Origin: a virus
DNA length: 37,131 nucleotides
IMG/VR virus record: IMGVR_UViG_3300037427_001073
Coordinates: 1 to 37,131 of that record
Strand: one strand, 5' to 3'
This document shows, piece by piece, positions 3,597-31,798 of this stretch. Made by a program: the position numbers and the translations under genes. The notes under the pieces were generated by a model. It saw only the letters and a program-made list of their open reading frames with translations, searched no databases and was not told the origin of the DNA. The first letter of the stretch is position 1, and every line of letters begins with the position of its first letter.

Positions 3597-6500
3597 ATGG
3601 CATCAACAATCACTAATAATTCTGGTTTTTCAGTAACCGAAATAGAGAACGAACCTATAAGAACTAGTTCTGGTTTTTCTGTTACTCAAATAGGAGATGA
3701 ATTTATTTCTGATAAATCAAGTGGTTTTAGTGTAACTCAAATAGGAGAAGAAGCTCTAGGGGAAAAACATATTCTCGATAAGATGAGTGACCCTCATTAT
3801 ATGCCAACTGAAGAAGAGTATTATGCTTATTTAGAGGCAGAAGAGAATGTTGAAAAACCAAGTGCTATAAGTTTATTAAAATCAGGAATAGCAATGGCTG
3901 CTTCTGATCTTGCTGGAATCTTTACTGGGTCTTACAACTTAATAGCAGAAGGAGAGTTTGGTGAGGGGTTCAAAGCTATTGGTGAAGCTGCTGCAAGAGG
4001 CACTGCTGACATAGGGCAATTAGCTAGAAAGATTGTTCACGACAATGTGCAGTACGCTTTAGGAGATGACTCGAGTGATTACGAAGTTTTCCTAGCTACA
4101 AGAAAGCTGCAATCAATCCGAGAGAAAGCTAGAGAGGGTGATGCAGGGCTTTTGTTTGATCTAACTCCAGAAGCTAACAAGGTTGCAGAAGGATTATCTT
4201 ATGTAACTGATCCAACTGTTTTTATTCCCGGTGCAGGGTTAGTTGCTAAAGGCACAACAAAGCTCGGATCGATGGCAACCAGTGGTGCTGGAAAAGTTAT
4301 AGGAGGCACAGGCAGATTAGGTAAAGGGTTAGCAGACAAAGCATCAGATGCATTGCAAGACTTAGCCCCCGGTGCAACTGCAAGTGACATACCAAGAGTT
4401 GGCTTAGTAGGCTCTGCCATTGAAACTGGTAGAACCCTTCCTAGCATGATGGACACAGCAGGAAGAACTCTTGAGCAGGCATCAAAGCAAATCGGTAAAC
4501 AACCATCCCGAATGGGAGTGTTAAGAACGATTAGTGAAAACGCTTCAGTGCCAGCAGACATAAGGCAGTTTGCAGGAATGATTCGTTTTATGGATAAACC
4601 CTTAGCTGCTGCTGGAACAGTTGGTAGAGGGGCTTTTGAAGGTGCTGTTATTGGTTCTACTTTGGGAGCCCTTGCAGAGGGGCGTGAGGGTTTTTATAGC
4701 GGATTAGGGGCTGGAGGTTTTATGGGTGCTGGTGCTTCCTCAATTGGAGGGGCAGCAAGCAGGGTATCAGGCTATAGAAGAAAGCAAGCTATAAGCAAAG
4801 ACTTTGCAGATTACATTTCAAGAAAATCAAAAGAAGAGGGGATTAACATAGCTAACTATGCTGGCAAAGATGTTAACGATATGGCTCTGATTATGGATGT
4901 AGAAAGGATTGCTACTGGACACACTGGTAGAGATATGACCTTTAAGTTTTTAAACGATGAACAGTTTAGAACTGAGCTCGCTAAGAGAGAAACAATGAGC
5001 GAAGGAGTAAGAGTTACTCCAGAAGAAGTTCAATCAGCAAGAGGTGTTTATATTGATGACTCTTCACCTACAATATTAGTTAACACCAGCTTTGAATTTA
5101 ACAAGGGAAGAACATTGGCTCACGAAGTTTTTCATGGACTCAGCAGGCTAGAGACGATGAAAGATTTTACAGATAGACTTTCAGATAATTTATTTGGAAT
5201 ATATGATGCTGGAGGAAATTTAATTAAAGACGGGGTACTTACTAAAGAAGGAAAAACAAAAAAAGAAAAAAACAAAATCATTTATGATTTAGGATTACAG
5301 TACGCTAAACACTTAAATAAAAAAGCTAGGAGACAGTTTTTTGGAGACGATGTCTCTGCTAAAGGTGATTCAAAAATATCCCCAGAATTAAAGTCACAAA
5401 GATTTAGACAAAAATTAGCAGAAGAAATAGGGGCTGAATACTTTGCTGGTTTACTTGCTGGCAGTAGCCCTGACTCATTACTACCTAAGAATATAGACAG
5501 CATGACAAGAGGCTTTTTAGATAGAATTATGTTGTCAGATTCAGAAAGTAAGTTAGGGGTAATGCGTAAAGTTTTAGACAGAGCTTTTGGTGATGTTTGG
5601 AAATGGGATAAAGCAACTGGCAAACCAACTGCTGGTGATTTGTTTTCAAAAGATGGTAAGCCTTTAACAAACAGTCCAGAGATAAACGCTTTACTGCGTG
5701 ACATGATTAGGGCTAAGAAAAAAATTACTTCAAAGTTGGAGTATGCAGATAAGTCTAAGCAAAACACAGCATCCCCGAGAAACTTAGGTCAGGATGAAAT
5801 TAAAAGGCTAATAGGGTTGAACCCTGCAATGGCTGACTTGTTTACTTTAAACGCTAGAGGCAAATACGTTCCAAGAAAAGATGTTGATATAGCTGCTGAA
5901 GAACAACAGAGGAGCGGGGCTATTGTTAATGCATTAAGCAATACTACAAGTGGAGCAGAAGCGGGTGCTGTTAGATTGGTAAGTGAGGGTGAATATTCTG
6001 GTATGAAATTTAATCCAGAACAAATTGAATCGCTTTTAGAAATACCAGAACTTAATGACCATGTTAAAACTCATCTAAGAGAAATAAATGATAAGATAGG
6101 TGAGGGTGATGTTTTAGAAATTGATTACTATGCTGCTACTAACAAAGGCAGAAGAATAAACAGGGAAACTGGTAAGCCTTATTATGTTTCAAAATACAGC
6201 ACCAGAATAAGAATGTCTCGGAGGAAGGTTGTCCCTTATCACATGAACATTTCCAATGCTGGAAACTTTCACATGAAGGCTTTAGATATTACAAAGCTGG
6301 GTGATAAGATTGACAAGTGGAACAAGAATAAAAATAAAAGAGAATGGATAAAAGAGTGGAGCAACATGGATGAATTATATTCTGATTTATCTCGTTACCT
6401 ACAAAACTTATCTAAGCCAGAAGGAGAAAGAGTTGAGTCTTCAAGCCTGTTTGGGGAAACCAAAAGAAATATATTAAATGAACTATTAGGGGCTAGAAGA

Positions 6501-9500
6501 AACGAATTAGTAAATCCTTTGCAGCTTCTTGAGTACGCTGAGAAAGATAATCTTATAAGAGACTTCAGACTTGATCGTATTAACCAAATGAACTGGGAGA
6601 CTTTCATGGGTAAAGAATGGAAGATGAGCGAAGAAAGTTACCAACTGCAAAAAATAAATTATCTTCCTGCAAACAAGCAACCCGAAAACTTACCAGTAGA
6701 AACTCCAAGGTTAAGCAAAGAACAAGAAGCTAACATTAAAGAGGTTCAAGAACATTATAACAAAGTCACACCTCAACGCATTAAAGAATTAAAAAGAGAA
6801 GCTCTTGAGTCTTTGAGTGTTAGAATTGAAGAGTTAGGAATACCTAAAAAAGAAGCAAAACAACTTGCTCAAAAAGCATATAAAACTATATCAACAAATA
6901 CAAAACGAACATCTGCTGTAGTGAGTGGTATAGGCAAAATGGATTTAGCTAGAATGGCTGGAACTTCAAGCAAAAAAGGAGGTTTCCCTATGCGATCCCA
7001 TGTTAACAAAAGTTGGCTTACAAGTGCGTTTGAGGCAATTGAAAAAGACTCTGATGTAGCGGCTATGAAAGCACAGCAAGTAGCCAAGCAACTGTCTAAA
7101 AAAGAACTTGGCGATATGATGAAAGGTGTTGATTCAGACGCACAAGTAGCTTCTGGGGAAAGATCAGCAACCATGAAACTTGGAGAAGAGTTTAGGGACA
7201 GAGAATCATTAGCTGATGAAAAAGCATTTGGTTCATCATTAAGAAAAGATTTAAACGCTCCACCTCGGGTTTATGCATCAGTAGGAGATGGTCAAAAGTT
7301 TTTATCACAAGGTAATTACGATGCATTTTTTACTTGGAAAAAAACTGCTCCAATTGTTGTAACAAGCCATCACCATTATGGAGTTGGAAACGGACTAACA
7401 AACATTCACGCTTCAAAAAATGTAGGAGATAAAAATGCTAGAAGTTTCGGTGATCCCACAAATGAAAAATACACAAAATTAAAATCTGGCAAAAAAGTTT
7501 TAGACACACATTTACTTGTAGGCAATAAAGGAATTGATGCTGCAAAAATTCATCAACTCATGGTATCGCTTCCCGCATCTGCTTTAAAAGAGGTTAAAAG
7601 AGCTTATAAAAAAGATGGTGTTAATTCAGCTTGGAAAGAATTAGAGAAAGCATCTTACAAGCAAAATATGGGGCAAGGTTCTCAAGGTAGATCAAGCTCA
7701 TTTACACATACAACAGAACAGGGAGATGTAATCCGTCCATTAGTTGCTGTGCAATCAAACAGAACAGAAGCATACGTTCTTGATCCTAGTTTTAAAAACG
7801 TAGAAAGCGTCACTATTGTAACTTCAAAAGAAAAGAATGTAAGGTTGCTGAAAAAGAAAATTGTTGAAGCATTTGAAGCGAATGGAGTGAAGTTGCCTAA
7901 AGTTAAAATTGTTCTTCCAGAATCAGGCCCAAGCCCACACAGAGGCAGACAAAAGTTAGCAAAAGAATATGAGCAGCTTACTGGAGAAGTTCATTACTTA
8001 CCAGAGGTTGAAACGGTTCGCACAGTTGACCAACTAGTTGAGGCAGCTAGATCAGAAAAGGATTGGCGAACATGGTATCAAAGGTACAGCAACCAGCTTA
8101 ATACCTTGTTCGGGGTATCGGGTGCTAAAACATTTGAAAAGATTTTAGGGTCAACCTCCCAAGCTACTGGGGTTGCAGGCAATGTAACTCTTGCCTTGAG
8201 GGCTTACACGCAAATGATAACAGGCCAACCGTTTGAAGGATTCCTTGAGGGCGTTAAGAATAACCTTGAGCGAATCCGAAACGAGGAGATGGTGCAGGGG
8301 CAGAAGATAGGGGAGTTTGCTAGGGCAGCAACAGGAGACGAGAGTGGTGTAGCTATAGACAGGCACGTTGCCCGTATAATTTTTGGAAGAGAAAACTTGC
8401 AGGGTGGAAGCACTCCATCAGCGAGGCAAGTTAAGAGGGGGAAAATAATAGTTAACCAAGTAGCTAAAAAACTTGGATGGAAGCCGAGAGAAGTGCAAGC
8501 TGCCTTATGGGCTGCTCAAATTGAACTCGACGCAAGAGCGAGAGGTGTAGAGCCTAAAAAAGAATCATACGATACCTACCTAGACAATGTATATAGATCA
8601 AAACGAGGGAAGTCCACAGTTGCCGAAATCATCAAGGGTGCAAGAGCCATCGAGCGAGGAGATGCAGAACTCGTTTCTGGAACTCTTGGAAGCACAGGCA
8701 AAGGTAAAAGCAAGAGGCCAGATCGTTCTGGAGTTATTATTAGAGAGCAAGGAAATGAACGAACAATAAAGTTCATGCCCGAGGTGGATGGCAAACCTCT
8801 TGGCCCGAGCTCAGAGCAAATGCTTCAATCATTACTTGATGGTAATATAAGCAGGGATCAATTTGATGCGGCTATAGAAGTATTAAGACCAGTTGATAAA
8901 GTTGAAATCCCAACTGATGAAAATGTTCACCTTAATGAAGGCAACATGAGGAAGTTGGAAATGACAATGAAACCAACTCAAATGCCTTTAGTCGGTGAAG
9001 CTAGAAAATTACCAGATGGAACTCCTGTTGGTTTAAGGATAGACATCCCAACATTCAATAGGTCTGTTGAGCTAATGCAGCAGGGAGTTTTAAATGAACC
9101 AGTTTATGCAGTTACAATCCATGAAGGTGCTGAGAAAAAAGCAAAGTTAGGAAAGAGAATTGGTTATGACATATTCAGCAGGGTAAAGAGTTTTAGCAAA
9201 AATGATCCTGTTATGTTCCATACTATTAACCAAAAAAAATCAGAGCAGATTGGAACTGGTGAAGCTAATAAAACCACTATAGCCACTGCTGAAGGATTGC
9301 TTGTTCAAAGCAGAGAGTTGCCAAGTGATTTAAACACATGGGCTCAAGTTGGGATGAACCCTAAAAGGCACACATACTTTTATGACAGAGAAACAGGGCA
9401 AGCTGTTAAAGGTGGAGAAGAAACAATTAACTTTGGCAATACTGTATTTGTTAAAAAACCTATTTACTTTTCAGAAGCTGAAAGATTAAGCCTGTTCACA

Positions 9501-9692
9501 TACTTACCAGAAACAGTTGGTGAATCCAAAGTCAGCGAAAGTGGTGACGGGTACAAGGCTATCAAGCGTGATGGCAAGACAAGGGTATACTCACCTAGTG
9601 GAAGGCTAATAGGCGTTGCAAGCTCGGAGAAGGTCGCTGATAAGATTTATAGGAAACACAGTGGGATTAGAACGAATAATATTCGCAAGTGA
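3597..9692 (+). CDS. Giant (2031 aa) polyvalent ejection protein with zinc-metalloprotease motif
   Basis: The largest gene here. Seen in order: three copies of an SGFSVT(E/Q)I motif (residues 8-56); hydrophobic and amphipathic helices (about 80-400); a zincin motif HEVFH at 509-513 preceded by RTLA, with AEEIGAEYFAG about 100 residues later as a possible third zinc ligand; a long charged middle; a helical domain around 1490-1600 including AIDRHVARIIFG; and a C-terminal domain (about 1800-1990) with TPVGLRIDIP and WAQVGMNPKRHTYFYDRETG. The last two resemble modules I know from phage and plasmid polyvalent proteins, which enter the host with the DNA. Likely role: ejected effector and channel protein, perhaps with a peptidase acting on envelope or host proteins. 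Domain calls are from memory of motifs. Confidence 0.7.
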   Translation: MASTITNNSGFSVTEIENEPIRTSSGFSVTQIGDEFISDKSSGFSVTQIGEEALGEKHILDKMSDPHYMPTEEEYYAYLEAEENVEKPSAISLLKSGIAMAASDLAGIFTGSYNLIAEGEFGEGFKAIGEAAARGTADIGQLARKIVHDNVQYALGDDSSDYEVFLATRKLQSIREKAREGDAGLLFDLTPEANKVAEGLSYVTDPTVFIPGAGLVAKGTTKLGSMATSGAGKVIGGTGRLGKGLADKASDALQDLAPGATASDIPRVGLVGSAIETGRTLPSMMDTAGRTLEQASKQIGKQPSRMGVLRTISENASVPADIRQFAGMIRFMDKPLAAAGTVGRGAFEGAVIGSTLGALAEGREGFYSGLGAGGFMGAGASSIGGAASRVSGYRRKQAISKDFADYISRKSKEEGINIANYAGKDVNDMALIMDVERIATGHTGRDMTFKFLNDEQFRTELAKRETMSEGVRVTPEEVQSARGVYIDDSSPTILVNTSFEFNKGRTLAHEVFHGLSRLETMKDFTDRLSDNLFGIYDAGGNLIKDGVLTKEGKTKKEKNKIIYDLGLQYAKHLNKKARRQFFGDDVSAKGDSKISPELKSQRFRQKLAEEIGAEYFAGLLAGSSPDSLLPKNIDSMTRGFLDRIMLSDSESKLGVMRKVLDRAFGDVWKWDKATGKPTAGDLFSKDGKPLTNSPEINALLRDMIRAKKKITSKLEYADKSKQNTASPRNLGQDEIKRLIGLNPAMADLFTLNARGKYVPRKDVDIAAEEQQRSGAIVNALSNTTSGAEAGAVRLVSEGEYSGMKFNPEQIESLLEIPELNDHVKTHLREINDKIGEGDVLEIDYYAATNKGRRINRETGKPYYVSKYSTRIRMSRRKVVPYHMNISNAGNFHMKALDITKLGDKIDKWNKNKNKREWIKEWSNMDELYSDLSRYLQNLSKPEGERVESSSLFGETKRNILNELLGARRNELVNPLQLLEYAEKDNLIRDFRLDRINQMNWETFMGKEWKMSEESYQLQKINYLPANKQPENLPVETPRLSKEQEANIKEVQEHYNKVTPQRIKELKREALESLSVRIEELGIPKKEAKQLAQKAYKTISTNTKRTSAVVSGIGKMDLARMAGTSSKKGGFPMRSHVNKSWLTSAFEAIEKDSDVAAMKAQQVAKQLSKKELGDMMKGVDSDAQVASGERSATMKLGEEFRDRESLADEKAFGSSLRKDLNAPPRVYASVGDGQKFLSQGNYDAFFTWKKTAPIVVTSHHHYGVGNGLTNIHASKNVGDKNARSFGDPTNEKYTKLKSGKKVLDTHLLVGNKGIDAAKIHQLMVSLPASALKEVKRAYKKDGVNSAWKELEKASYKQNMGQGSQGRSSSFTHTTEQGDVIRPLVAVQSNRTEAYVLDPSFKNVESVTIVTSKEKNVRLLKKKIVEAFEANGVKLPKVKIVLPESGPSPHRGRQKLAKEYEQLTGEVHYLPEVETVRTVDQLVEAARSEKDWRTWYQRYSNQLNTLFGVSGAKTFEKILGSTSQATGVAGNVTLALRAYTQMITGQPFEGFLEGVKNNLERIRNEEMVQGQKIGEFARAATGDESGVAIDRHVARIIFGRENLQGGSTPSARQVKRGKIIVNQVAKKLGWKPREVQAALWAAQIELDARARGVEPKKESYDTYLDNVYRSKRGKSTVAEIIKGARAIERGDAELVSGTLGSTGKGKSKRPDRSGVIIREQGNERTIKFMPEVDGKPLGPSSEQMLQSLLDGNISRDQFDAAIEVLRPVDKVEIPTDENVHLNEGNMRKLEMTMKPTQMPLVGEARKLPDGTPVGLRIDIPTFNRSVELMQQGVLNEPVYAVTIHEGAEKKAKLGKRIGYDIFSRVKSFSKNDPVMFHTINQKKSEQIGTGEANKTTIATAEGLLVQSRELPSDLNTWAQVGMNPKRHTYFYDRETGQAVKGGEETINFGNTVFVKKPIYFSEAERLSLFTYLPETVGESKVSESGDGYKAIKRDGKTRVYSPSGRLIGVASSEKVADKIYRKHSGIRTNNIRK

Positions 9693-20455: not shown

Positions 20456-20932
20456 ATGCCGAGGAGCTCGAAGAAAGGCACTGATTACGATAGGTCAAGC
20501 TATAAAAAGTATGACCCTGAGAAATACGAGCTTATTCTCTCCATGAGAAAGCAAGGCAAATCTTATAACGAGATCACCAGCGTCACAGGAGCTTCACCTA
20601 ACACTATAAGCCGCATTTGCTATGAGAATGCAGAGGAACTAGGCAAGTGGAAGAAAAGAGTCTCCAGCAAGCTAGGAGAGGCAATAGACCTACTTTCTGA
20701 CCGTCTGATTACTGAGGCTGATAAGTTATCTATTGGTCAAGTACCCGTCAGCATTGCTATAGCTGCTGATAAGAAGGCTATGCTGGACAACGAGAATGTA
20801 ACTCATGTTGTTCACCACAAGGGACTTACACATTCAGAGCTCGGGGATAAGCTGGAGCAAATGAAGAGAGCCAAGCAAGAGCCCCAAGTCATTGATGTAG
20901 AAGAGGATAAGCAGGAGGAGCCACTCAATTAA
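20456..20932 (+). CDS. Helix-turn-helix protein, candidate small terminase subunit
   Basis: 158 residues. The N-terminus is basic; residues 28-52 (ILSMRKQGKSYNEITSVTGASPNTI...) form a Hin/homeodomain-like helix-turn-helix. A helical middle follows (SKLGEAIDLLSDRLITEADKL) and an acidic end (VIDVEEDKQEEPLN). A DNA-binding head, helical oligomerisation region and acidic tail is the layout of many small terminases (DNA recognition for packaging). It lies about 2.6 kb before the large subunit rather than beside it, so a transcription regulator is an alternative. A TATAAT at 20432 lies upstream but lacks a properly spaced -35. Confidence 0.55.
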   Translation: MPRSSKKGTDYDRSSYKKYDPEKYELILSMRKQGKSYNEITSVTGASPNTISRICYENAEELGKWKKRVSSKLGEAIDLLSDRLITEADKLSIGQVPVSIAIAADKKAMLDNENVTHVVHHKGLTHSELGDKLEQMKRAKQEPQVIDVEEDKQEEPLN

Positions 20933-21099
20933 ATATAATACCTATTGTGCGAAAACAACTACACATATACATACATAACTCACTGGATATCAACAACTTA
21001 GCACCCGCAAGAAAGGGGGCGGGGGGGGTCTTGAGGGTTCGAGGGGAGAAATCGTGACGGGTTGGAACCTATAGATTTTTTTACATAAAAAGACATACT
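20933..21099 (+). other. 167-nt non-coding region with G-quadruplex motif, candidate packaging or control site
   Basis: The longest gap between genes here. 20966-20975 is TATACATACA, identical to one arm of operator copy 1 but without its partner. 21015-21046 holds four G-runs of 5, 8, 3 and 4 with loops of 1, 6 and 5 nt, which meets the usual intramolecular G-quadruplex pattern; it stands out in AT-rich DNA. Beyond it come GGGTTGG and a T7 tract. It sits between the small-terminase-like gene and the rest of the packaging genes, where cos or pac sites are common. No promoter found. Confidence 0.6.
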
Positions 21100-21492
21100 A
21101 TGGCAGGCGATTTACAGAACATATTTAATTCCATTTACTCAGCAGCTTCCCAAGCACAGCGAGCAGTGGAGGAGCAGCAGGCACAGCGATTCGTTTCAAC
21201 TTACTTTGAGAAGGATGGTAGTCCTAAGAGCATAACCTTAAAGCTCAATGATAAGAATGTGGAGGCTCCACTGGTGACACTGGTGCAGCATAACCCTCTT
21301 AAAATTGATGAGCTAGAGATTGATCTGGAGCTTAATCTGGATCACACGGGGGAGAAGACTCTGGGATGCCTTGGAAAGCTAAGGCAGGGAAAGCAGATGG
21401 CTAATATGAAGATAAAATTTACCTCTACGGATCAAGCAGAAGGCTTGGCTCGGGTAGGTGACAACCTAGTTAAATTAATACCAACGATATAG
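21100..21492 (+). CDS. DUF2589-family protein 1
   Basis: 130 residues. MAGDLQNIFNSIYSAASQAQ at the start, an acidic-basic KDGSPKSITLKL segment, VEAPLVTLVQHNPLKIDELE and a beta-rich end fit the DUF2589 family as I recall it (MAG..NIF.SI.SAA; PLISLV.HN.LKIDEM). The function of the family is not known to me. It is usually found in bacteria as neighbouring pairs, and a second member follows here 7 nt downstream. Nothing membrane-bound or enzymatic is visible. Presence between packaging genes of a phage suggests it is made late and may be a virion or assembly component. Confidence 0.7.
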   Translation: MAGDLQNIFNSIYSAASQAQRAVEEQQAQRFVSTYFEKDGSPKSITLKLNDKNVEAPLVTLVQHNPLKIDELEIDLELNLDHTGEKTLGCLGKLRQGKQMANMKIKFTSTDQAEGLARVGDNLVKLIPTI

Positions 21493-21499
21493 AAATAAA

Positions 21500-22117
21500 A
21501 TGGCAGCAGACTCAAATCAACTGGCAGACTATGGCAATTTGCCCATAGGTGATCTTATCCTTAGCCCAATTTTAGCGGCTTCTGATGGGGGTACAGCATT
21601 GGCGAAATCGACCTTGCAATTTGTGCAGGAAATCGGCTTTGACGAGAACGGAAAAACGAAATGTTTAGAGGTGGAAATTGAACGGATGACAAAAGGGGAT
21701 AATGATACCCTTGTACCCGTAAAGCAGACAATTAAAACACCTCTGTTAAGCCTTGTGCAGATTCCTAATGTTGGGATCACGGATTTGGATATTACGTTTG
21801 ATATGGAGATATCCTCCCACACAAGCGATACCTCATCCACTGACAGCACAAAGACAGATTCATCCACTACAGAAGGACACGCTTCAGCAAGTGGCAAGGT
21901 TTGGGGAATTGGGTTTGATGTAGGGGGTTCACATAGCAGCACACATAATGGAAGTGTGACCACAAGTAGCTCACAGACCCGTGAAACTGACTTCTCTAGT
22001 CGCTACACTATAAACTGTAAGGCCCAGAACCTAGGTATGTCAGAAGGCATGGGTAAGTTGACACAAATGCTTTCACAACAGATGGATGTTGTGGATACAG
22101 CGGGAGACAGTAAATGA
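21500..22117 (+). CDS. DUF2589-family protein 2, with Ser/Thr-rich insert
   Basis: 205 residues. NLPIGDLILSPILAASDGGT, LQFVQEIGFD, VKQTIKTPLLSLVQIPNVGI and TDLDITFDMEI match the second, longer type of DUF2589 protein. Between about 106 and 165 there is a Ser/Thr/Gly/His-rich stretch (SSHTSDTSSTDSTKTDSSTT and onward) before the final beta segment NCKAQNLGMSEGMGKL. Such inserts occur in exposed loops of multimeric proteins. Paired with the shorter paralogue upstream and followed by a structured leader. Function unknown; a pair forming a hetero-oligomer is inference. Confidence 0.7.
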   Translation: MAADSNQLADYGNLPIGDLILSPILAASDGGTALAKSTLQFVQEIGFDENGKTKCLEVEIERMTKGDNDTLVPVKQTIKTPLLSLVQIPNVGITDLDITFDMEISSHTSDTSSTDSTKTDSSTTEGHASASGKVWGIGFDVGGSHSSTHNGSVTTSSSQTRETDFSSRYTINCKAQNLGMSEGMGKLTQMLSQQMDVVDTAGDSK

Positions 22118-23267: not shown

Positions 23268-23562
23268 AATTAAAGATTTATTAGTAGGTTTGGATTTAAA
23301 AACCCAGATGGGTAAGGACGCATTAAAAGAGGCTGTAAAATTCATAAAAATCTTAGATCAAAAACAACAGGATTATGGTTCTGACAATATAAGTTTAAGC
23401 GGAGAGTTAGGTGTTATAGTTAGGAGTCAGGATAAGATTTGCAGATTAAAAAATTTATTGGGTAAAGAAAAAGTTAACCATGAAAGTGTTAGTGATAGCT
23501 GGATGGATTTAGCTAATTACGGGCTAATTGGTTACATGGTGCATAATAAAATTTGGAAGTGA
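23245..23562 (+). CDS. DUF1599-like (nucleotide-modification-associated domain 1) protein
   Basis: 105 residues. KQQDYGSDNISLSGELGVIV, SQDKICRLKNLLGKEKVNHE, ESVSDSWMDLANYGLIGYMV follow the DUF1599/Nmad1 pattern (DYG, vR..DK..RL, E...D...DL.NY), a helical family grouped with NTP-pyrophosphatase-like proteins and found beside phage base-modification genes. Such proteins may act on nucleotides to be modified or cleaned from the pool. No modification synthase is nearby, so the link is only family-based. The next gene starts at GTGA overlapping its stop. Confidence 0.75.
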   Translation: MTMKEKSEIKDLLVGLDLKTQMGKDALKEAVKFIKILDQKQQDYGSDNISLSGELGVIVRSQDKICRLKNLLGKEKVNHESVSDSWMDLANYGLIGYMVHNKIWK

Positions 23563-25157
23563 TAGAGCTAACGGATCATCCAACTATTTATAAGCCTAGC
23601 GAGGCTGAAATCCTTGATTATGAAAAAGATTACGGACAAGACGCTACTGTAGCTTTGTTGATGGAGCGTGAGCAGCTTATCAAGCTGGAAAAAGATGATC
23701 CATATAATCACAGGCAAGTTTTAGACCATTGGAAAGATGCGGAAGAATTATTAAAAGACCATGATCAGCTATTGATCTCGGGAGGAAACCGGAGTGGTAA
23801 AACTGCCTTTGCAAGTTGGTATGTTGTTCAGCTTTTAACAAAAAAAGCAGGGGCAAGAATTGCCTGTTTCAGTATGACTCACCAAAGCAGCATTCGTGAC
23901 CAGCAGCCTGCTGTTTATGAGATGTTGCCTAAAGAGTTTAAGAAAATGAAACGGGGGCAAGTGCAAAATGTTAAATACACACAAAAGAACGGATTCAGTG
24001 ACGGCACATTCGTCTTCCCAAACGGATCACAATGTTGGTTCAATGCATACCAGCAACCTCTCGACGTATTGGAAGGGTTTGAGGCTGACGCTATTTGGTT
24101 TGATGAGTTGGTTCCTCATACATGGTATGAAACTGCTGCTTATCGACTTGTAACTCGTAAAGGTAAAATGCTGGTAACAGCTACACCAATAACAGGCTAC
24201 ACTCCTGTCTATGGCACTTTTGTTAATGGTGCAGAAATTAAAGAGACTCGCCCTGCTCCACTTTTAGAAAATCAACCAACTGTTGCTGGAGCCAAGAGGG
24301 GTGAGATGCCTTACATCATGGAGTGCATCGATCCTAAGAAGGCTTGTATGTTCTTCTTCACAGAATTTAATCCCTATAACCCTTATGACCAAATGGAGAA
24401 GACGTTGGCAGGAGAAACGTCAACGCAAATTAAAATCCGAGCCTATGGATATACAGATAAATCGGCGGGAAACTTTTTCCCTAAGTTTGGAAAAACTCAC
24501 ATCATCAAGCCCGAAAAGATTCCAGAAGATGGCACGAACTATATGTGCGTCGATCCCGCTGGGAGTCGCAACTGGTCTATGCTTTGGCTACGGGTTGATC
24601 GTGATGGGAATATGTACGTTTATCGTGAGTGGCCTGATCTTAAAACGTATGGTGAGTGGGCTGTGCCTGCTCAAAAGCCAGAAGGAGCTATAGGCCCAGC
24701 GGCAAAACCAGAGGGCAGGGGATTACTTGAGTATAAGGAAATAATTGATGAGCTTGAAGCAGATGAAAGCATCGAGGTAAGGCTTATTGACCCCCGAGCA
24801 GGAGGAAGTACAGCCGCAACTGCTGAAGGTGGAGAGACATTAATAGATTTACTTGAGGATATTGGATTGGATTTTTATAAGGCTGCTGGATTGCCTATTG
24901 AGCAGGGGTTAAGCCTGATAAATGAAAAATTAAACTATAACATTGATGAGCCTTTAAGCGTCCTAAATCAACCAGCGTTATTTATTAGCGAAGATTGTGG
25001 AAACTTGATTGATTGCATGAAAGAAGTAACCGCTTCTGGAGGTGACAAGAATAAGTGGAAAGATTTTGTGGATTGTTTGAGGTATTTACTTACTTACGAT
25101 CCCATCTATGTTGATGGGCAAACGTGGAAGGCACACGGTGTTGGTGGAGGATATTAA
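23559..25157 (+). CDS. terL: Large terminase subunit
   Basis: 532 residues from GTG 23559, which overlaps the previous stop as GTGA; a TTG at 23553 is the other candidate. ATPase part: Walker A GGNRSGKT (75-82), Walker B DAIWFDE, and the coupling motif near VTATP (206-210). Nuclease part (RNase H-like): CVDPAG (D332), LIDPRAG (D411) and DFVDCLRYLL (about D505) supply the metal-binding Asp residues. It packages DNA into procapsids by ATP hydrolysis and cuts genome units. The portal gene follows after one small HTH gene. Full length, no defects. Confidence 0.95.
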   Translation: MIELTDHPTIYKPSEAEILDYEKDYGQDATVALLMEREQLIKLEKDDPYNHRQVLDHWKDAEELLKDHDQLLISGGNRSGKTAFASWYVVQLLTKKAGARIACFSMTHQSSIRDQQPAVYEMLPKEFKKMKRGQVQNVKYTQKNGFSDGTFVFPNGSQCWFNAYQQPLDVLEGFEADAIWFDELVPHTWYETAAYRLVTRKGKMLVTATPITGYTPVYGTFVNGAEIKETRPAPLLENQPTVAGAKRGEMPYIMECIDPKKACMFFFTEFNPYNPYDQMEKTLAGETSTQIKIRAYGYTDKSAGNFFPKFGKTHIIKPEKIPEDGTNYMCVDPAGSRNWSMLWLRVDRDGNMYVYREWPDLKTYGEWAVPAQKPEGAIGPAAKPEGRGLLEYKEIIDELEADESIEVRLIDPRAGGSTAATAEGGETLIDLLEDIGLDFYKAAGLPIEQGLSLINEKLNYNIDEPLSVLNQPALFISEDCGNLIDCMKEVTASGGDKNKWKDFVDCLRYLLTYDPIYVDGQTWKAHGVGGGY

Positions 25158-31627: not shown

Positions 31628-31798
31628 ATGTTTAAGTCAAAAAGTTTCTGGGGAGGCATTACGGGTTTGCTCGGGGCAATCGCGGGATGGGCCACTGGAG
31701 AAATCGAACTTGGTAATGCAATCTCAATCGGCACAACAAGTATCTTGGCGATTTTCGTCAAACACGCTGTGCATAAAGTTGAGAAAAAAGTAGGCTAA
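31628..31798 (+). CDS. Holin-like small membrane protein 2
   Basis: 56 residues. Basic start MFKSKS, then a hydrophobic Gly/Ala helix (WGGITGLLGAIAGWATG), a short acidic turn (EIELG) and a second helix (AISIGTTSILAIFV) ending in a basic tail HAVHKVEKKVG. The two-helix hairpin with a short turn is a class II holin layout. Its stop overlaps the next ATG (TAATG). It may pair with the gene upstream as holin and antiholin. Confidence 0.6.
   Translation: MFKSKSFWGGITGLLGAIAGWATGEIELGNAISIGTTSILAIFVKHAVHKVEKKVG

Follow-up and report, generated by a model that had tools for sequence, protein, structure and literature searches.

The window analysed here is a viral DNA record of 37,131 bp that is classed as linear and in which no terminal direct repeat of 15–399 bases was found. 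Positions 21015–21046 of its + strand are occupied by GGGGGCGGGGGGGGTCTTGAGGGTTCGAGGGG, a sequence with G-runs of 5, 8, 3 and 4 located between a gene for a small-terminase-like HTH protein (20456–20932) and a gene that starts at 21100. The first-pass annotation had singled out this four-run stretch, and it is indeed present: the strict box GGGGGNGGGGGGGGT, searched with at most one mismatch, occurs once in the window, compared with a mean of 0.01 in shuffled windows. A second canonical G-quadruplex (G4) motif with shorter runs lies at 31663–31691. Elsewhere in the window, positions 3597–9692 encode one protein of 2031 aa, which may be an internal virion protein or a polyvalent protein. The features considered below are as follows:

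20456–20932, + strand: probable small terminase (TerS), an N-terminal HTH followed by long helices; its 3′ end is about 80 nt before the G-box
21015–21029, + strand: G-box GGGGGCGGGGGGGGT, proposed cleavage or cohesive-end block (cosN-like); kept in TerL, TerS, box2 and direct-pattern searches
21030–21056, + strand: spacer of 27 nt, variable in sequence and conserved in length; contains the non-conserved G-runs 21035–21037 and 21043–21046
21057–21063, + strand: box2, ACGGGTT (consensus A[C/T]GGRTT), proposed terminase-recognition part
21075–21092, + strand: A/T tract ATTTTTTTACATAAAAAG (consensus AAAATTTTTTNNCAAAAAG), proposed bendable TerS-binding segment
21100–22117, + strand: two DUF2589 genes between the site and TerL; relatives have other genes in this interval
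23553–25157, + strand: large terminase (TerL; phrog_2, E 1.7e-18; Terminase_6N), of the family linked to the site

Conservation of the G-runs had been suggested as a check, and the answer differs between the two halves of the stretch. Runs 1 and 2 (21015–21028) are kept in all relatives compared, which were found through their flanking proteins, and so are the ACGGGTT sequence about 28 nt beyond the G-box and the A/T tract (ATTTTTTT...TAAAAAG). Runs 3 and 4 are not conserved: a relative whose flanking proteins are 98–100% identical (L002) has GAGGG...GAGGAAGG in their place, and another (L006) has neither run. The genes directly downstream also differ among relatives, with the site retained. 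Since runs 1–2, box2 and the A/T tract are kept and runs 3–4 and the downstream genes vary, we take the unit to be the composite at 21015–21092. It consists, in this order, of a 14-nt G-box (G5-C-G8 or G7-A-G5/6, followed by T), a spacer of 27–30 nt, an ACGGRTT box and an A/T tract, about 75 bases altogether.

Variation within the composite was assessed on 92 distinct sites chosen regardless of the G-box. The box contains 11–14 G in total, interrupted by C in 58 sites, A in 30 and T in 4, and the spacer measures 27–30 nt in 83. A canonical G4 motif (four runs of at least three G, loops of 1–7 nt) is present in 9 of the 92 sites, and the canonical G4 was rejected as the conserved unit on this count.

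Directly behind the site in the window, the DUF2589 (PF11655) genes are adjacent (21100–21492 and 21500–22117). In one subgroup of relatives, a perfect inverted repeat, CCCCCCC-TTTA-GGGGGGG, is located ca. 1.3 kb upstream of the site (L034, position 2749; L038, 2864; L039, 2778; L040, 60). An unrelated viral contig (L142, 3988–4060) carries three successive long G-tracts, with neither TerL nor the composite.

Linkage of the composite to one TerL family

We scanned the 2.9 million viral contigs of IMG/VR with four kinds of query, namely the G-box, box2 plus the A/T tract, TerL and TerS. All four led to the same assembly, in which a G-box is followed, downstream and in the same orientation, by TerL of one family. 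The exact scan for GGGGGCGGGGGGGGTC alone retrieved at least 119 stretches, compared with 26 in total for the reversed control pattern in a completed scan; four of these 26 precede the same TerL family and resemble the real site in a G8-C-G5 form. Among the GGGGGCGGGGGGGGTC matches listed, 62 loci have the TerL family downstream on the same strand and one has it in another placement, while 55 are without TerL in the stored stretch. The reciprocal scan with AATGGATT-gap-AAAATTTTTT-gap-AAAAAG, a query that contains no G-box, gave 26 matches. In 24 of them, an equally spaced G-rich box occurs and the TerL family is found on the same strand; the remaining two have neither.

A TerL profile built from 16 diverse members retrieved at least 589 TerL-bearing relatives from IMG/VR. 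With a strict filter, the G-box was detected in about 45 of the best ~80 of these, many of the others being too short. The scan with the TerS of a sister group (described below) gave 68 loci, and the box is present in all 47 distinct sites of sufficient length. The distance from the site to TerL ranges from 0.4 to 8 kb. A single distinct site was found in 31 of 33 matching long records, the repeat in one of them (G015) being a terminal overlap and those in two others (G030 and G037) overlapping matches. As can be seen, the composite is a DNA signal usually present once per genome unit at or near the terminase genes, with its parts at fixed spacing and in fixed orientation to TerL. An Opitutae locus (L241) yielded no box in the neighbourhood of its TerL, and distant TerL members may differ in their site.

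A sequence search for solved structures related to TerL returned none. In two loci (L082, 9255–11873; L085, 715–3333), the TerL frame is 873 aa long and is interrupted within the Walker A region by an intein-like insertion (GGNR | CITGDTPIL...HHN | STKST).

The adjacent HTH gene and selection on DNA

The HTH protein encoded near the site is probably TerS, judging from its HTH content, position and homology. A small terminase is expected to combine an N-terminal HTH with a helical oligomerisation part and to be encoded beside TerL or the packaging site, and the protein of 20456–20932 has these properties. Its predicted model shows the HTH at good confidence and then long helices. It is homologous to the TerS of the sister group (HHalign profile match, E 1e-11), for which the predicted structure is of low confidence. 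A fold search with the window protein gave no significant match (best E 0.23; small terminase G20C, E 0.58), and one of its PHROG matches is annotated as a transcriptional repressor. Such an HTH/TerS homologue lies no more than 1 kb from the site in 178 of the 179 loci with a TerS match, in one of three arrangements: upstream on the same strand, as in the window; antisense and overlapping the site; or between the site and TerL, as in Phage C75C1. The last arrangement is the best evidence for the identification, since C75C1-like loci have the usual order site-TerS-TerL, with the TerS gene immediately before TerL.

The antisense arrangement allowed us to ask at which level the site is constrained. 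In the sister group, whose genomes are ca. 48–49 kb, the TerS homologue is encoded on the strand opposite TerL and the 3′-terminal part of its gene extends across the site; read on that strand, the G-box specifies a PPPPP tail of TerS. Selecting loci by the pattern makes a codon test of the G-box circular, and we therefore ran the test again on loci selected through TerS. In 28 such sequences the five codons are CCC, CCC, CCG (25) or CCT (3), CCC, and CCT (27) or CCC (1); the other conserved prolines of this TerS use up to four codons. Box2 also lies within the sister-group gene, where the proline of an NPS motif, untouched by pattern selection, is CCG in 27 of 27 sequences. In at least five further sequences, TerS ends 29–45 nt short of the box and the box is retained. 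Nearly fixed codons, together with a box that is kept with or without coding overlap, indicate that selection acts on DNA. The site is found in sense, antisense, coding and non-coding settings, i.e., it acts as DNA, independently of the genes that it overlaps. It is unusual for a cis signal to shape the end of a protein, as this DNA constraint does by fixing a polyproline tail where the site overlaps the 3′ end of terS.

Packaging and alternative readings

A composite that is usually single-copy, linked to the terminase genes, fixed in orientation and constrained as DNA looks like a packaging initiation site, and a terminase-linked DNA packaging site is very probably what it is. The first-pass annotation had suggested a possible packaging start here, at a spot common for cos or pac sites; a packaging site beside the small terminase is well supported, given that the G-box is kept in relatives, is linked to both TerL and TerS and is under constraint at the DNA level, while cos cutting at this place is what we infer. 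The strict G/C block has, at 13–14 nt, the length of a cohesive end, and the presumed recognition box and the A/T tract come after it. This arrangement resembles cos, and the composite is reasonably likely to be a cos site of which the G-stretch forms the 5′ block, with the genome ends and the position of the cut placed there by the same reasoning.

The positions of contig ends bear on this choice. Among contigs selected through TerL or TerS, 17 ends fall within 146 nt at the site, compared with about 4–5 expected (hand estimates were used for part of the background rate and for some of the end positions), and five of the 17 are inside the box or 1–2 nt away. Contigs selected for the whole pattern gave five ends versus 2.3 expected, an excess that is not significant. 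Two circular contigs are opened 0–1 nt from the box edge, six out of eight circular contigs that were checked have their opening elsewhere, many contigs (circular ones included) cross the site, and the contig of the window has no end there. The pile-up fits fixed ends; breaks introduced at a 13-nt G-tract by sequencing or assembly could look the same.

For a cos site, one can envisage that TerS would bind box2 and the A/T tract and that bound TerS would position TerL on the concatemeric genome. TerL would then introduce staggered nicks in or beside the G-box, leaving cohesive ends rich in G/C. The G-box would be the beginning of the virion chromosome, which would continue through TerL and the head genes, and in the arrangement of the window, TerS and the replication genes would be at the opposite chromosome end. 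Binding by TerS, nicking at the G-box, the type of overhang and fixed rather than headful ends are all parts of this proposed scheme. It is very doubtful that near-homopolymer G single-stranded ends of ~13–14 nt anneal in shifted registers or assemble into G-quadruplexes between molecules. If they did, this would explain the strict run length and the single C or A interruption; to our knowledge, near-homopolymer G cohesive ends of this kind have no precedent in phages.

Headful (pac) initiation would also begin with TerS bound to the composite, TerL making the first cut nearby and the later cuts being headful, with permuted ends. The pac sites of P22 and SPP1 lie inside their terS genes, which the overlap of the sister-group site with the 3′ end of terS recalls, and the frequent circularisation of assemblies, with most of the checked circles opened away from the site, would suit this scheme as well. 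However, a near-invariant G-rich block of 13–14 nt is atypical of pac, and contig ends are concentrated in or beside the box, including the two circles opened at its edge; we regard headful initiation as unlikely. We think it quite unlikely that the composite serves as an origin of replication or as a regulatory DNA element for the late region and is tied to the terminase genes by chance. Its place, upstream of TerL where the replication/lysis genes give way to the head genes, and its A/T tract would be appropriate, and regulation would be a conceivable role for the HTH protein encoded nearby, as the repressor annotation of its PHROG match would have it. Yet the site stays when the directly downstream genes change, is still there where the adjacent HTH gene overlaps it in antisense, and is linked to TerL over 0.4–8 kb. 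Nor was a sigma-70-like promoter found in 20700–21700. The role in late transcription that had been put forward for the stretch finds no support in this, nor in the retention of the site where the adjacent gene runs the opposite way. As for a quadruplex of the four G-runs, in DNA or RNA, also suggested earlier, the window sequence does fit (G3+N1-7)x4 and the box alone could form a two-layer quadruplex, but few related sites match, near-identical relatives have lost runs 3 and 4, and box2 and the A/T tract at their fixed spacing would be left unexplained. We consider a quadruplex as the functional unit extremely unlikely. No credible match to an Rfam RNA element was obtained at the site.

The cos reading can be compared with known systems. 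In lambda (cosQ-cosN-cosB), the left end is a G-rich 5′ overhang, GGGCGGCGACCT. Lambda cos is a composite of a cleavage block and a recognition block upstream of the terminase genes (PMC4669245). In its proposed parts, the site described here shares this organisation near the terminase genes as well as G-richness, but its sequence is unrelated, it is ~75 nt long versus ~200 in lambda, and its G-box is nearly homopolymeric. In HK97, an A/T run on one side of the cut is required for small-terminase binding, the small-terminase site covers positions 7–37 with the A-tract from about position 24, and a 10-nt 3′ overhang is produced with the assistance of an HNH protein (PMC11331095). Here too, an A/T run lies on one side of the proposed cut and the terminase genes are adjacent; unlike in HK97, the tract is ~46–60 nt from the G-box, where the cut is placed by inference, and there is a separate ACGGRTT box. 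PaP3 has GC-rich 5′ cohesive ends, GCCGGCCCCTTTCCGCGTTA (PMC3488191), and a podovirus-sized genome like that considered here, but the sequences are unrelated, its TerS is without an HTH and its overhang is not a G-tract. Searches of the open-licence literature for the box sequence, Phage C75C1 and Verrucomicrobiota phage packaging found no published description of the site.

Relatives, hosts and use of the site

Phage C75C1 (OQ984151) is the only full-length TerL relative among 50,697 phage records. Its record, which is circular and silent on packaging, carries the site with a G7-A-G5-TC box in the order site-TerS-TerL; its TerL is related to that of the window, though at 32% identity. A scan of genome contigs gave three TerL relatives, every one in Verrucomicrobiota MAGs, and in a search of that phylum TerL relatives were found in 12 of 387 genomes. 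Four Verrucomicrobiota loci that were extended upstream (L421, L422, L423 and L424) contain the composite or a close form of it together with the TerL family, and one of them, L422, is 14 kb of a 3.75-Mb Verrucomicrobiota contig. The presence of the composite and TerL in Verrucomicrobiota genomes indicates that prophage-like copies exist.

The tailed-phage lineage with this site is large, linked to Verrucomicrobiota and almost wholly uncultured. The site provides a DNA signature for the start of packaging in a lineage with at least 589 TerL-bearing IMG/VR stretches and essentially no cultured member. With it, metagenomic genomes can be oriented and closed, their physical ends predicted and a link to Verrucomicrobiota made. 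The composite is also a compact site for the study of DNA recognition by terminase, and the prophage-like regions in L421–L424 offer a possible laboratory entry point if a host proves culturable.
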